From Chloroflexota bacterium (GTDB taxonomy: Bacteria > Chloroflexota > Dormibacteria > CF-121): DNA of 46,626 bases. Where the stretch lies: NCBI GenBank assembly GCA_005881715.1, contig VBEE01000055.1, positions 1-46,626 of the forward strand, given 5' to 3'. Within the stretch, counting starts at the first letter, position 1. Every line of letters starts with the position of its first letter. This document shows positions 3,045 through 16,506 of the stretch, piece after piece. Both the position numbers and the translations under genes were made by a program. The notes beneath the pieces were generated by a model. That model searched no databases. It was not told where the DNA came from and saw only the letters and a program-made list of their open reading frames with translations.

Positions 3045-4730
3045 ATGACCGGGGCGCTGCAAGTCGTGCAGGCGGTCGTCAGCCTCAGCTTCCTGGTGCT
3101 CGGTGCGTCAACTGTCATCGACTGGCTGCGGCGTCGAGAGCGCAACCTCGGGTACCTGGCCCTCGCGCTGGGCACCCTCGGATTGACCAGCGTCCTGGGC
3201 CAGTTCAACACCCGCACCGAGTACCGCTTCGGAACGCTGATGGGCGATATCACCCTGGTGCTCCTGATGACGTCGGGCTACGCCCTCCTCCTCTTCCGGG
3301 ACAGTTTCATACCCCTCAGCCGCCGGCTGCGCATCGGCGCGCTGGTGCTCTGCGTGGCGGTCACGGCGGCGGCCCTGGTGGTCGTCGTCCCCGTATCGCC
3401 GACCGCCCGGCCAACTTCCGTTCAGCTGGCGGCGACCATCGCGCTCGTCCTGGTCTGGACCGCCTGCGTCGCGGAGCCGATCGTCCGGCTCTGGGCTGCC
3501 TCCCGCGGCCGGCCCGCGGTTCAGCGGGCACGGCTCCGGGCCCTGGGCGGGGGCTATGCGGCCATCGTGATCATCCTTCTGGTGTCCGTCTTTGGCGGCT
3601 CGGCCGTCGCCAACCCGTTCGTGCAGTGGCTCTTCGAAGTTGGGGCGATCATCGCCTTACCCCTCTGGCGGCAGGCGGAGGAAGACCAGCTTCGCGAGGC
3701 CGTCCATGATCTGGTGCTCTTCAGTCCAGACCGGCCAACGCTGGCGAAGCGCGCCGCGGACTGGGGGCTGCGTCTGGTGGGCGCGGATGGAATCGGCATC
3801 GTCGACGCCAACGGGGATATCCTGGCGCTCCACGGGCTGAGCGCCGAGTCCGCCCGGCAGCTCGCCACCCACGCGGCCGGCGGCGGTCGACCGCGACTGC
3901 TGGCCACCAGCGGGTCGGCTCGGGAGAACGCGATAGTGCTTCCCCTCCCGCTCGACGCCGGGATCGGCGCCATGGTAGTGGTCTCCGGTCCATATACGCC
4001 CTTCTTCGGGACCGACGAGGTCAGTCGCTTGCGGGGGTACGCCGCGAACATCACGGCCGCGCTCGACCGCGCCCGGGTGACCGAACGGCTGGCCGCCCTC
4101 GAGAAGACCAAGAGCCAGTTCCTGAACCTGGCCTCGCACGAGCTGCGCAGCCCGCTGGGGGTGATCAACGGCTACCTCTCGATGCTGGAGCAGGGTGTGT
4201 TCGGTCAGCTCAAGGAGTCAGGGATGCGCGCCCTGGAGGTGTTGAAAGCCAAAACCGTCGAGATGAATTTGCTGGTGGCGCAGATGCTCGATGCGGCGCG
4301 TCTCGAGGATGGACGGCTGGCGTTGAAACGTGATCGCCTGGATCTGCGCGAGGTTGCTCGCGAGGCGATGCAGGTAGTGCGGCCGCTGGCCGGCGCGGAT
4401 CATGACCTCTCGCTCGATGCGCCGGCCCAAGCAGTCACCGTTTTCGGCGATGTGGGGCGGATTCTTACGATCATCACTAATCTGCTGGAGAACGCCATCA
4501 AGTATTCCCCACAGGGCGGCCGGGTTCAGTGCATCGTTGCCGCCGCCGACCATACCGCCAGCGTTACCGTCATCGATGGCGGCATCGGCATCGCCCGCGA
4601 GGACTCGTCAAGGCCAGTCACGTCGGCGGAACCGGTCTTGGCCTCTATCTCTCGCGAGAGCTGGCTCGGCAGCATAGCGGCGACATCCAGGTTGAATCCC
4701 GGCCAGGGGCCGGAAGCCGCTTCACCTTGA
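3045..4730 (+). CDS. Membrane sensor histidine kinase, frameshifted in the ATPase domain
   Basis: About six hydrophobic helices form an N-terminal sensor region (roughly residues 1-205). A GAF-like segment follows (about 225-345), then a HisKA domain with the phospho-acceptor in [16 protein letters not shown] (His365 counted from this start), and an ATPase domain with the N box [11 protein letters not shown] and the G1 box DGGIGIA. Immediately after GIAREDS the frame changes: the F box is missing and the G2 box [13 protein letters not shown] appears in the +2 frame (4604-4852). About ten residues are absent and the reading frame is lost, so the encoded protein ends in about 50 unrelated residues and should lack kinase activity. 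Either the gene is decaying or the assembly lost roughly 30 bases. No response regulator is adjacent. ATG 3039 is an alternative start. Confidence 0.8.
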
Positions 4731-10383: not shown

Positions 10384-10875
10384 TTAGGGCTTGACCAGGC
10401 TCCAGCCGGTGTAGTTGCCGTTGGTGTCACCGGGCTTACTGTCGCTGTGGAAAAAGTAGAGTGGCAAGCCCTTGTATGTCACCTGCAAAGAGCCGTCATC
10501 GCGGGTGATCGTCCCCAGCTGCCCGGTCACACCGGTCCCACCCATCGGCGTGCTCCCGGATGGTACGGATAGGGGCGGCCATGCCGAGATGCATCCACCC
10601 TTGCAGTTGCTGACGCCGGGTGTATCGCTCTTGAACGTGTACACGGTATGGCCGTTGGACGCCGCCACCAGGATGGTACCCATGCTGCCGACCACCTGGG
10701 CGAGGACGACGGGCGACGCCGAGGGGGCCGGGGTTGCGGTCGGTGTGCCGGATGGCGACGATGACGGCGACGCCGTCGGGCCCGCGCCAGACGACTGACC
10801 ACCACACGCCGCAAGCATCAGGGCGGAGGTGGCCGCGACCAGCGCGGCACCCGCACCTCGTTTCCCAAAGGTCAT
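10384..10875 (-). CDS. COG4315-type lipoprotein (secreted repeat of unknown function)
   Basis: 163 residues. A lipoprotein signal peptide ends in LAAC (Cys24), followed by a Ser/Pro/Thr-rich linker (about 26-55). The globular part has the two-copy secreted-repeat pattern: first GHTVYTFKSDTPGVSNCKGGC followed by AWPPL, then GLPLYFFHSDSKPGDTNG followed by WSLVKP. The paired Cys residues in NCKGGC probably form a disulfide. Family members are exported proteins of unknown function. The start is well set by AGGAGG 6 bases before ATG 10875. It lies 62 bases downstream of the Rieske gene in the same direction, so it may belong to the sigma-Rieske unit or be one of its targets. Confidence 0.82.
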   Translation of the reverse strand: MTFGKRGAGAALVAATSALMLAACGGQSSGAGPTASPSSSPSGTPTATPAPSASPVVLAQVVGSMGTILVAASNGHTVYTFKSDTPGVSNCKGGCISAWPPLSVPSGSTPMGGTGVTGQLGTITRDDGSLQVTYKGLPLYFFHSDSKPGDTNGNYTGWSLVKP

Positions 10876-10937
10876 TCGAACCCTCCTCGAGCAGAGATCG
10901 CTGCCGGCTTCTACGGTGGCCCGTTACGCAGCGACGC

Positions 10938-11612
10938 TCAGACCGAATACACCTCCACCTGCCCGCGTTCGATGCGCACCTGCAGCAATGGCAGCCTCGG
11001 CAGGGGTGTGTCGTACTGATCGGTCGGCCTGCCGGTGATCTCGAAGGTCGCCCCGTGACAGGGGCACTCGAACTGGTTGCGAAACTTGCTGAAGTTGAGG
11101 ATGCAACCCATGTGGGTGCAGACGGCGGAAAGGCCCTTCACCTCATCGCCCTGACGGATGAGAAATCCCTCGATCGCCCCCGAACGAAAAGCGACAGGGG
11201 TGCCCTGCGGCAGATCGGCCAGCGCTTTCACCGGCTTCCAGGCACCCTTCTCGACCAGCGCCTGGGCCGGACCGGGCGCCACCGCCTTCGGCACCAGCCG
11301 CTCGACCCCGACGGCGGCCGCCACCCCGGCTGCGATCCCTGCGGCGCCGGTCAGCAGCAACGACCGGCGGCTCGGTCGTGCCGCCGGCTGCGGCCGGGCC
11401 GACTGCTCACCGACCCATCCACCGATCGATCCCTGCATCCGCTCCAGGAATTCTTTCGACGGCAAGCCAGCGCCAGGCTTGGCCGCGCGCAACATGGCAG
11501 CCGTCTGCCGGGCGCGCAGCGCGTCTTCGTCTGACAGGGGGGTGCGTTCGGGTTTGCGGTCATGGAGCAGGTCGTCGACGTGCCGGTCGAGCTGTTCGGG
11601 ATCGTCGTTCAT
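10938..11612 (-). CDS. Membrane-anchored Rieske [2Fe-2S] protein with cytoplasmic N-terminal domain; candidate redox anti-sigma factor
   Basis: 224 residues in three parts. Residues 1-78 are charged and helical (DRHVDDLLHDRKPER, then LSDEDALRARQTAAM) and have no metal motif. SRRSLLL at 81-87 followed by a hydrophobic helix to about 102 resembles a Tat signal-anchor. Residues 120-224 are a Rieske domain with both cluster motifs, CTHMGC (165-170) and CPCH (183-186). The topology would leave the N-terminal domain in the cytoplasm and the iron-sulfur domain outside, the same arrangement as membrane anti-sigma factors. Its ATG overlaps the stop of the ECF sigma gene (ATGA), and such translational coupling is typical of sigma/anti-sigma pairs. 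No cytochrome b or c genes are near, so a bc1-complex subunit is unlikely from context. The regulatory role is inference; the Rieske fold is clear. Confidence 0.85.
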   Translation of the reverse strand: MNDDPEQLDRHVDDLLHDRKPERTPLSDEDALRARQTAAMLRAAKPGAGLPSKEFLERMQGSIGGWVGEQSARPQPAARPSRRSLLLTGAAGIAAGVAAAVGVERLVPKAVAPGPAQALVEKGAWKPVKALADLPQGTPVAFRSGAIEGFLIRQGDEVKGLSAVCTHMGCILNFSKFRNQFECPCHGATFEITGRPTDQYDTPLPRLPLLQVRIERGQVEVYSV

Positions 11613-12166
11613 GACATCCTCCCCCGCTCCCGGCCGGCGCGGTTCAGCGCCCGAAACTGCAGGACCTTGACGTTCGCCTCACTCAGGCTCAGCTCCTGGG
11701 CGGTCTCGCGCACGGAATAACCCCGCAGGAAGCGGAGCTCCAGGACTCGCCGGTAGCTCTCCGGCAGCGTCGCCAGCAGCGCGTCAACCCGATGCACCGC
11801 CTCCGGGTTTTCGCGGGGAGCCGGCGGCCGGGTGACATCTTCATCGAGTTCGCCGGCACCCTCGGCGTAGTACTCGCGCCAGTGATCGGCCAGGGTGGTC
11901 TGCGCCACCCGGTAGAGCCAGCTGCGTAGCTCGGGGACCGACACATCGTTGCGCATGCCGCTGATCGCCTTCATGAATACCTGGGCCGTGAGATCCTCGG
12001 CGTCGGGACGGTTCCCGACGCGGCTGTAGATGTACTGGTAGATCGCCGTGACATGTGTCTGGTAGGCCCAGGTGAGGTGGTCCTGGCCGTGCGGAGGGTC
12101 GGCGTGAGGCAGGGACACCAGGTTGGCCCGGGAAACGGCGGCGCCACTTGTCTTACCCTCACGCAT
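11609..12166 (-). CDS. ECF-family RNA polymerase sigma factor
   Basis: 185 residues with region 2 (YQTHVTAIYQYIYSRVGNRP, then DAEDLTAQVFMKAI and the -10-binding RSWLYRVAQTTLADHWR) and region 4 (LPESYRRVLELRFLRGYSVR, then a helix-turn-helix through AQELSLSEANVKVLQFRAL). There is no region 3, as in ECF sigma factors. DAEDLTAQVF is the usual core-binding stretch. The stop overlaps the Rieske gene start by 4 bases (11609-11612), so the two proteins should be made in step. On this strand TATAAC (12178-12183) lies 11 bases upstream of the ATG and is a candidate -10 box. The gene diverges from trxB, a common target of thiol-stress sigma factors, but I found no well-spaced GGAAC/CGTT-type promoter. 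Confidence 0.92.
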   Translation of the reverse strand: MREGKTSGAAVSRANLVSLPHADPPHGQDHLTWAYQTHVTAIYQYIYSRVGNRPDAEDLTAQVFMKAISGMRNDVSVPELRSWLYRVAQTTLADHWREYYAEGAGELDEDVTRPPAPRENPEAVHRVDALLATLPESYRRVLELRFLRGYSVRETAQELSLSEANVKVLQFRALNRAGRERGRMS

Positions 12167-12278
12167 CCGCTTCCGCAGTTATATACCGGCCGAGGTTACG
12201 CTGCGCGGAACCGGCGGCGGCCTCCGTTCAACAGCCGCCGATTTGGGAATACTCGAGTACAGAAAGGGCTTAGATAAC

Positions 12279-15335: not shown

Positions 15336-15341
15336 TAGAAT
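15336..15341 (+). promoter_or_regulatory. -10 box TAGAAT of a probable leaderless promoter (cysteine desulfurase)
   Basis: TAGAAT is 7 bases before ATG 15349 and overlaps the alternative ATG 15340, which argues for the downstream start. Confidence 0.5.
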
Positions 15342-15348
15342 GGTGCCG

Positions 15349-16506
15349 ATGGTGTACCTGGACCATTCGGCCACCACGCCGCTCGACCCCGAGGTTCTCC
15401 AGGCCATGATGCCGTACCTGACCGAGGAGTTCGGCAATGCCTCCAGCGTCTATGGTCTCGGCCAGCGCGCCAGGCAAGCGATCGACCAGGCCCGCGACGA
15501 GGTCGCGGCTTTCTACGGCGTCGAGGCAAGGGACGTGATCTTTACCTCCGGCGGCACCGAGGGTGACAACTTTGCCCTGCGAGGCATTGCCTACCGAAAT
15601 GCGGACCGTGGCCGGCATCTGATCACCTCGACCATCGAACACGATGCCGTGCTCCGTTCCGTCGAGTCCCTCGAGCGCGATGGCTTCGAGGTAACCCGGC
15701 TGCCGGTCGACCGCTACGGGCTCGTGGATCCGGACGCCCTGCGGCACGCGCTGCGGCCGGACACGACGCTGGTGAGCATCATGCACGCGAACAACGAGAT
15801 CGGTACCATCGAGCCAATTTCGGACCTGGTGGCCGTGACTCGGGAGCACAGCGATGCGTACTTCCACACCGACGCGGTGCAGTCGACCGGGAAGATCGCG
15901 ACGCGAGTGGATGAGCTCGGTGTCGACCTGCTCTCGATGTCGGCGCACAAGCTTCACGGTCCAAAGGGCGTCGGCTGCCTGGTGGTACGGTCCGGCGTTC
16001 GACTCGAGCCCTTCATGCTCGGCGGGGGGCACGAGCGCAACCGTCGGGCGGGGACCGAAAACGTGGCGGGCATCGCCGGGCTGGCGAAGGCCGTCAGCAT
16101 TGCCCAGCGCGACATGGCGCAGAACATCGCCCAGCTGACCGCACTTCGCGATCGCTTGCTGGAGGGGGTGCTTGACCGGATCCCTGCTGCCGAAATCACC
16201 GGGCACCCGGCGAAACGGCTTCCCCACCACGCCAGCTTTCTCTTCCAGGGCGTCGAGGGCGAGTCGCTCCTCCTCCAGCTCGATATGGAAGGTATTGCGG
16301 CGTCGTCCGGATCAGCCTGCACCTCGGGGTCGCTGGAACCGAGTCACGTCATCCTCGCGCTTGGGTATCCGCGCGAGCGGGCGCTGGGCAGCCTGCGGCT
16401 GTCGGTTGGTAAGGACAACACGCAGGCCGACGTCGATCTCGTTCTCCGGCGCCTGCCGGATATGGTGGCCCGGTTGCGCGCCATGGCGCCGATCTCCGCC
16501 GCCTGA
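15349..16506 (+). CDS. Cysteine desulfurase, NifS/IscS type
   Basis: 385-residue class-V aminotransferase-fold enzyme that takes sulfur from L-cysteine for Fe-S clusters or thio-modified tRNA. It starts with the family hallmark VYLDHSATTPLDPEV. PLP-binding motifs are TSGGTEGDNFAL, HANNEIGTIEP and SAHKLHGPKG (Lys201 from this start), and the catalytic cysteine loop is SGSACTSGSLEPSH (Cys324), which identifies the IscS/NifS subgroup rather than SufS. GGGHERNRRAGTENV is also conserved. No iscU, mnmA or thiI is adjacent, so its acceptor is unknown. ATG 15340 is an alternative start three codons upstream but falls inside the probable -10 box. DUF2203 follows 10 bases downstream, probably in the same transcript. 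Confidence 0.94.
   Translation: MVYLDHSATTPLDPEVLQAMMPYLTEEFGNASSVYGLGQRARQAIDQARDEVAAFYGVEARDVIFTSGGTEGDNFALRGIAYRNADRGRHLITSTIEHDAVLRSVESLERDGFEVTRLPVDRYGLVDPDALRHALRPDTTLVSIMHANNEIGTIEPISDLVAVTREHSDAYFHTDAVQSTGKIATRVDELGVDLLSMSAHKLHGPKGVGCLVVRSGVRLEPFMLGGGHERNRRAGTENVAGIAGLAKAVSIAQRDMAQNIAQLTALRDRLLEGVLDRIPAAEITGHPAKRLPHHASFLFQGVEGESLLLQLDMEGIAASSGSACTSGSLEPSHVILALGYPRERALGSLRLSVGKDNTQADVDLVLRRLPDMVARLRAMAPISAA

Follow-up and report, generated by a model that had tools for sequence, protein, structure and literature searches.

Two overlapping genes on the minus strand form the locus in the window, the 46,626-nucleotide stretch of DNA that was analysed. The source genome is a 2.4 Mb assembly of 125 contigs, the named genomes nearest to it are 'Chloroflexi bacterium' MAGs from soil, and the locus sits on contig C83. 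The upstream gene (11609–12166) encodes a 185-residue ECF sigma factor with the Pfam domains Sigma70_r2 and r4_2, and the downstream gene (10938–11612) encodes a 224-residue protein with a Pfam Rieske domain, which is a putative anti-sigma factor. The Rieske ATG lies within the ATGA of the sigma stop codon, giving an overlap of 4 bp that was pointed out by a first-pass annotation of this DNA and is confirmed by the reading frames. The next gene on the minus strand (10384–10875) encodes a COG4315 lipoprotein (Lipoprotein_15, PF03640), and a trxB gene, with a TIGR01292 score above the cut-off, is divergent; Pfam and NCBIfam agree with the annotation on both neighbours. Two promoter-like motifs are present on the minus strand, GTAACCTCGGCCGGTA (12184–12199) upstream of the sigma gene and GTAACGGGCCACCGTA (10912–10927) between the Rieske gene and the COG4315 gene, which thus has a motif of its own. 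A gene for a NifS-type cysteine desulfurase (Fe-S biogenesis; 15340–16506, plus strand), scoring just below the NifS cut-off, is found 3.2 kb beyond the sigma start. PADLOC gave no match to anti-phage defence.

The Rieske protein is a fusion of three parts. The N-terminal helical domain of about 80 residues (residues 1–80; 11373–11612, minus strand) is predicted to be cytoplasmic and is the candidate anti-sigma domain. It is followed by a twin-arginine signal-anchor region, R82 and R83 and then a hydrophobic segment (11295–11372, minus strand), and by a bc-type [2Fe-2S] Rieske domain defined by Pfam and alignment (residues 125–197; 11022–11240, minus strand). The ligands of this domain are C165, H167, C183 and H186, the disulfide is C170/C185, and A188 and F190 occupy the positions of Ser163 and Tyr165. 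The SRRSLLL, CTHMGC and CPCH motifs reported earlier were all found in the protein. Rieske domains of this type bear a [2Fe-2S] cluster. The twin arginine fits Tat insertion with the N-terminal domain inside.

Homologues of the fusion were gathered from the class and the phylum (400 genomes, and 47 genomes of one class), and loci were selected by similarity to the fusion irrespective of linkage. This search for the fusion and the gene pair across genomes, which the first-pass annotation had proposed, gave 94 N-domain/Rieske fusion loci (inspected as 47 + 40 + 7) in Chloroflexota and on one Mycobacteroides plasmid. At 94/94 an ECF sigma gene was directly upstream on the same strand, with a short N-domain-related frame between the sigma and fusion genes at L061 and L062. 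A position directly after the sigma gene and co-inheritance with it, as looked for in a membrane anti-sigma factor, were found at all of them. The junction was measured at 85 loci, and the two genes overlap at 60 of these (exactly 4 bp in 38, other overlaps in 22), while 13 are separated by 0–30 bp and 12 are farther apart. The genes flanking the pair vary by clade but the sigma gene never does, therefore the constant pairing is not a mere absence of rearrangement. When 72,556 plasmids were searched, the single full-length fusion match came from Mycobacteroides abscessus subsp. bolletii 50594 (plasmid 1). There the pair is annotated 'RNA polymerase sigma factor' and 'Rieske (2Fe-2S) protein', overlaps by 4 bp and has a cupredoxin gene downstream. 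None of five plasmid Rieske genes without the N-terminal domain had a sigma neighbour. In one member of the genus (L010:5812–6396) the fusion ends after residue 172, owing to a broken frame or an assembly error.

The sigma factor has regions 2 and 4 only (Pfam r2 and r4_2), which places it among the ECF factors, and it scores 71.7 bits against TIGR02937 (cut-off 42.9). The best NCBIfam model was TIGR02952, the BldN family, with 90.4 bits, which is under the equivalog cut-off of 206.45. The closest solved structure was BldN (6dxo_A, E=2e-26 with the family profile), taken from the RsbN-BldN complex. The source genome has 21 sigma genes, and a Rieske partner was found at only one of the 21.

The N-terminal domain is kept in all fusion homologues in the alignments, and its profile is single-copy in the source genome. 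Consistent with the earlier claim of a domain without a known metal motif, residues 1–80 contain no zinc motif and match no Pfam or NCBIfam family. The domain profile likewise found no sequence relative in Pfam, NCBIfam or PDB, the N-domains of 46 members had no Pfam or NCBIfam match, to class I anti-sigma domains or otherwise, and RsbN was absent when PDB chains were searched with profiles to E=10. Known families of anti-sigma domains were therefore rejected for it. In L115 and L055 the sigma and fusion frames are in register, and the read-through chains were folded, giving models of homologues and not of the window protein. Three confident N-domain helices were predicted in each (210–224, 237–252 and 261–284 in L115; 194–204, 216–230 and 240–254 in L055), together with the sigma and Rieske folds. 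Three helices, as in the cytoplasmic domain of class III anti-sigma factors, are therefore predicted in two homologue models. Over 85 pairs, mutual-information (MI) coupling between sigma and N-domain was no stronger than that between sigma and Rieske domain, and the sigma distance-matrix correlations were similarly high for both parts of the fusion (0.853 and 0.839). The N-terminal domain appears to be separable, because genes for this domain alone exist. One (L061:4374–4607, minus strand) is an additional gene between the sigma and fusion genes, and another, without a Rieske domain (L222:3560–3928), has the promoter-like motif upstream in both directions, at 3555 (+) and 3494 (−).

The cluster-binding pattern CxHxxC ... 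CxCH and both disulfide cysteines were found in 85/85 fusions if Asp is accepted for the first His in four, and the ligand set was complete in 81/85. The four with Asp are L051, L058, L068 and L110 (CTDQGC, CSDLPC, CTDMGC), and their remaining ligands are intact. The twin arginine was present in 84/85 fusions; R82, R83, C170 and C185 are invariant in the alignment of 44 sequences. Hydrogen bonds from Ser163 and Tyr165 make the reduced cluster of bc1 Rieske proteins more stable (PMC12445004), and a link has been made between Tyr165Phe and lowered bc1 activity (PMC10715153). In the fusions the Tyr165 position is Phe in 83/85, and Ser is kept at the Ser163 position in 1/85. Because these hydrogen-bond residues are lost, we infer that the fusion cluster is of lower potential and unsuited to quinol oxidation.

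The fusion shares with bc1/b6f Rieske subunits the bc-type ligands, the two disulfide cysteines and the twin-arginine N-terminal anchor, and an ordinary subunit of a cytochrome bc complex that lies beside a sigma gene by chance would show the same cysteines and Tat anchor. It differs from them in its extra cytoplasmic N-domain, in the lack of a nearby cytochrome b gene and in the loss of the Ser163/Tyr165 residues (PMC12445004, PMC10715153). The source genome contains two further respiratory-type Rieske genes, on contigs C65 and C86, each adjoining cytochrome b and lacking the N-domain. Tyr165 is kept in the cluster loops of both, CPCHGGLY and CPCHGSRY, whereas the loop of the fusion is CPCHGATF. 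All three cytochrome b matches of the genome are on C65, C86 and C40 and none is on C83, which bears out the annotated lack of cytochrome genes near the locus. Consistent linkage of homologues to cytochrome bc, which would have spoken against an anti-sigma role, was looked for and was absent. With true bc Rieske genes elsewhere and the sigma linkage at 94/94, a bc-complex subunit was ruled out, its probability being negligible.

A motif, GTAAC-N6/7-SGTA, was found upstream of the sigma genes phylum-wide, usually in the form (T/C)GTAACC-N5/6-CGTA. Among 85 loci the gap was 7 in 55 and 6 in 9, and other gaps, from 2 to 25, occurred at most three times each. The strict motif gave 88 matches in 1.0 Mb of loci versus 2 in shuffled DNA, its logo showed no further conserved positions, and the other sigma genes of the source genome lack it. 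In 13 loci the motif also lies just after the Rieske gene, mostly before COG4315 or cupredoxin genes (reversed control, 0), and on the Mycobacteroides plasmid it precedes the cupredoxin gene. Two genes elsewhere in the source genome, a second COG4315 gene and a TIGR03118 gene, also have it upstream. Of their orthologues in the genus (best orthologue per genome), 11/13 and 12/13, respectively, have the strict motif, with 0 for the reversed control in the main scan. Genome-wide, the exact motif in 61 genomes was not enriched over the reversed control (about 50 each), therefore the regulon must be very small. In the genus it would putatively consist of the sigma operon, the two COG4315 genes and the TIGR03118 gene, all of them read from motif positions. 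Of the two outputs named in the first-pass annotation, the COG4315 lipoprotein gene of the window is a probable target, with a conserved motif shared with the sigma gene upstream of it. In contrast, trxB was rejected as a target, since its strand carries no motif and a divergent trxB is seen only in the family of the window. Single distant matches in L170, L172, L173, L178, L182 and L196 were also dropped, as the counts were not above the reversed control.

The spacing of the motif is unusual. No consistent match to a canonical ECF promoter (GGAAC-N-CGTC type) was found upstream of the sigma genes. GTAAC and CGTA are similar to known ECF boxes. The motif resembles the ECF −35 and −10 boxes yet is about 10 bp too short, with boxes 6–7 bp apart where about 16–18 bp is expected of an ECF-type promoter. 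Several lipoprotein genes start 8–9 bp past the SGTA box and lack an obvious ribosome-binding site, which fits SGTA as the −10 box of a leaderless transcript; GTAAC would then be near −24 rather than −35. Either the sigma factor binds with an unusual geometry or GTAAC is read by another factor. We lean towards reading of the short motif by the paired sigma factor itself, which would agree with the motif accompanying the sigma locus phylum-wide and recurring at the Mycobacteroides cupredoxin gene, with the likeness to ECF boxes, and with the failure to find a recurring gene for a third regulator at the loci. The motif could instead be the operator of another regulator beside a −10 box, not read by sigma region 4. 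The spacing some 10 bp under the ECF standard is in its favour, as ECF factors are reported to need a rigid spacer of about 17 bp, with 17 bp optimal for sigma-H (PMC6411747), and we hold it at rather less than even odds.

A protein with a membrane anchor and an N-terminal domain in the cytoplasm is commonly an anti-sigma factor when its gene immediately follows an ECF gene. The earlier sigma/anti-sigma reading is strongly supported by an obligate and mostly overlapping linkage that extends through the phylum and to a plasmid from another one, and also by the N-domain-only genes and the absent cytochrome bc linkage. These results indicate that the Rieske fusion protein is very likely an anti-sigma factor. 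Its cluster is fairly likely to be the sensor, and redox sensing is inferred from the intact ligands. As a whole, a membrane sigma/anti-sigma switch with a Rieske [2Fe-2S] sensor is the preferred explanation, to which a probability of about 0.6 was given. The Rieske protein would be co-translated with the sigma factor, and would fold and receive its cluster in the cytoplasm. The Tat route would then insert it with the N-terminal domain inside and the Rieske domain outside, and the N-terminal domain would keep the BldN-like sigma factor at the membrane. Oxidation, reduction or loss of the external cluster would alter the protein and so release the sigma factor, the polarity being a presumption. 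Oxidative or metal damage is favoured as the trigger, since in other clades the module occurs together with genes for cupredoxins, YtkA/FixH-like proteins and second Rieske proteins, but reduction by the quinone pool is equally possible. From GTAAC-N6/7-SGTA promoters, the freed sigma factor would transcribe the operon that encodes it and a small set of envelope-protein genes (for COG4315 lipoproteins, the TIGR03118 protein and, in some relatives, cupredoxins).

The anti-sigma factor could also carry a Rieske module without a redox role, in which the signal comes from the domain, the integrity of its cluster, or a partner or metal bound to it, and electron transfer has no role. The Asp in place of a His ligand in 4/85 fusions would suit such a protein, and the invariant C170 and C185, the bc-type disulfide positions in the 44-row alignment, could be the sensor themselves. 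However, the ligands are complete in 81/85, and a conserved Tat-type twin arginine is expected of cofactor-loaded export, which makes this reading unlikely. It is also conceivable that the Rieske protein transfers electrons in the envelope and is merely under the control of the sigma factor, with the N-terminal domain as a docking or stability element. Consistently, second Rieske, cupredoxin, YtkA/FixH-like or COG4315 genes are often found downstream of the fusion. These downstream genes vary by clade, however, whereas the sigma gene is constant, the linkage goes with the N-domain, which also occurs in genes without a Rieske domain, and the N-domain is on the predicted cytoplasmic side. Such a role is thus quite improbable.

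Compared with known systems, the sigma/anti-sigma switch proposed here is closest to RsbN/sigma-BldN of Streptomyces. RsbN defines the class III anti-sigma domains, which are membrane-anchored and have three helices, of which helices 1–2 bind sigma4 and helix 3 binds sigma2 (PMC7406223, PMC8103513). The sigma factor is nearest BldN by sequence and structure search, and three helices are predicted for the N-terminal domain here, but sequence similarity of this domain to RsbN is undetectable. The module thus looks RsbN-like in layout, as far as the models go, without demonstrable homology. We know of no RsbN with a Rieske domain. A functional likeness is found in SoxR, where a [2Fe-2S] cluster is the transcriptional redox sensor. 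SoxR binds DNA, resides in the cytoplasm and has a cluster ligated by Cys alone, whereas the fusion is predicted to hold its cluster outside the membrane and would have a sigma factor as its output. To our knowledge, Rieske proteins are electron carriers and not transcription sensors. With the class I anti-sigma factors (RseA, ChrR, RskA, RsiW) the fusion shares a candidate anti-sigma domain at its predicted cytoplasmic N-terminus, a putative C-terminal sensor and a gene directly 3' of the sigma gene. In contrast to class I, its N-terminal domain has three predicted helices instead of four (PMC7406223), no Pfam or NCBIfam match and no zinc motif.

In the open-licence literature 'anti-sigma' and 'Rieske domain' were never found together, looser pairs of terms gave only papers apparently unrelated by title and abstract, and 'sigma factor' was not found together with COG4315; an earlier mention in the ECF reclassification (NAR 2021) is possible. 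A respiratory-type iron-sulphur protein as the sensor of a sigma switch therefore appears to be undescribed in that literature. If the switch is as proposed, it would be a new input to sigma/anti-sigma systems, in which the external redox state or the integrity of a cluster is read inside the membrane. It would also give a function to a family now annotated merely as Rieske (2Fe-2S) protein and a handle on the unknown families COG4315 and TIGR03118, and the spacing of the promoter boxes would be outside current models of ECF recognition. The full combination of a phylum-wide transmembrane redox switch, an undescribed three-helix anti-sigma domain and a sigma factor using promoter boxes one helical turn closer than in any ECF promoter known to us is doubtful; if it were true, sigma regions 2 and 4 could not take up their usual geometry on RNA polymerase.

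The genes after the fusion differ among clades. At L056:6492–7049 and L059:5499–6128, a second Rieske protein without the N-domain is encoded after the fusion and is followed by a COG4315 gene. A conserved protein of 81–87 residues, to which no family was assigned, is encoded at L067:2740–3000 (minus strand) and likewise at L068, L069, L072–L076 and L083; within one family of the class, its gene and the 3' end of the Rieske gene often overlap or adjoin. A small YtkA/FixH-like membrane protein is encoded at L117:645–1073 (minus strand) and at L110, L112, L118, L119 and L153–L155, in a clade with Ktedonobacteria-like large genomes, and in most cases its gene shares 4 bp with the 3' end of the Rieske gene.
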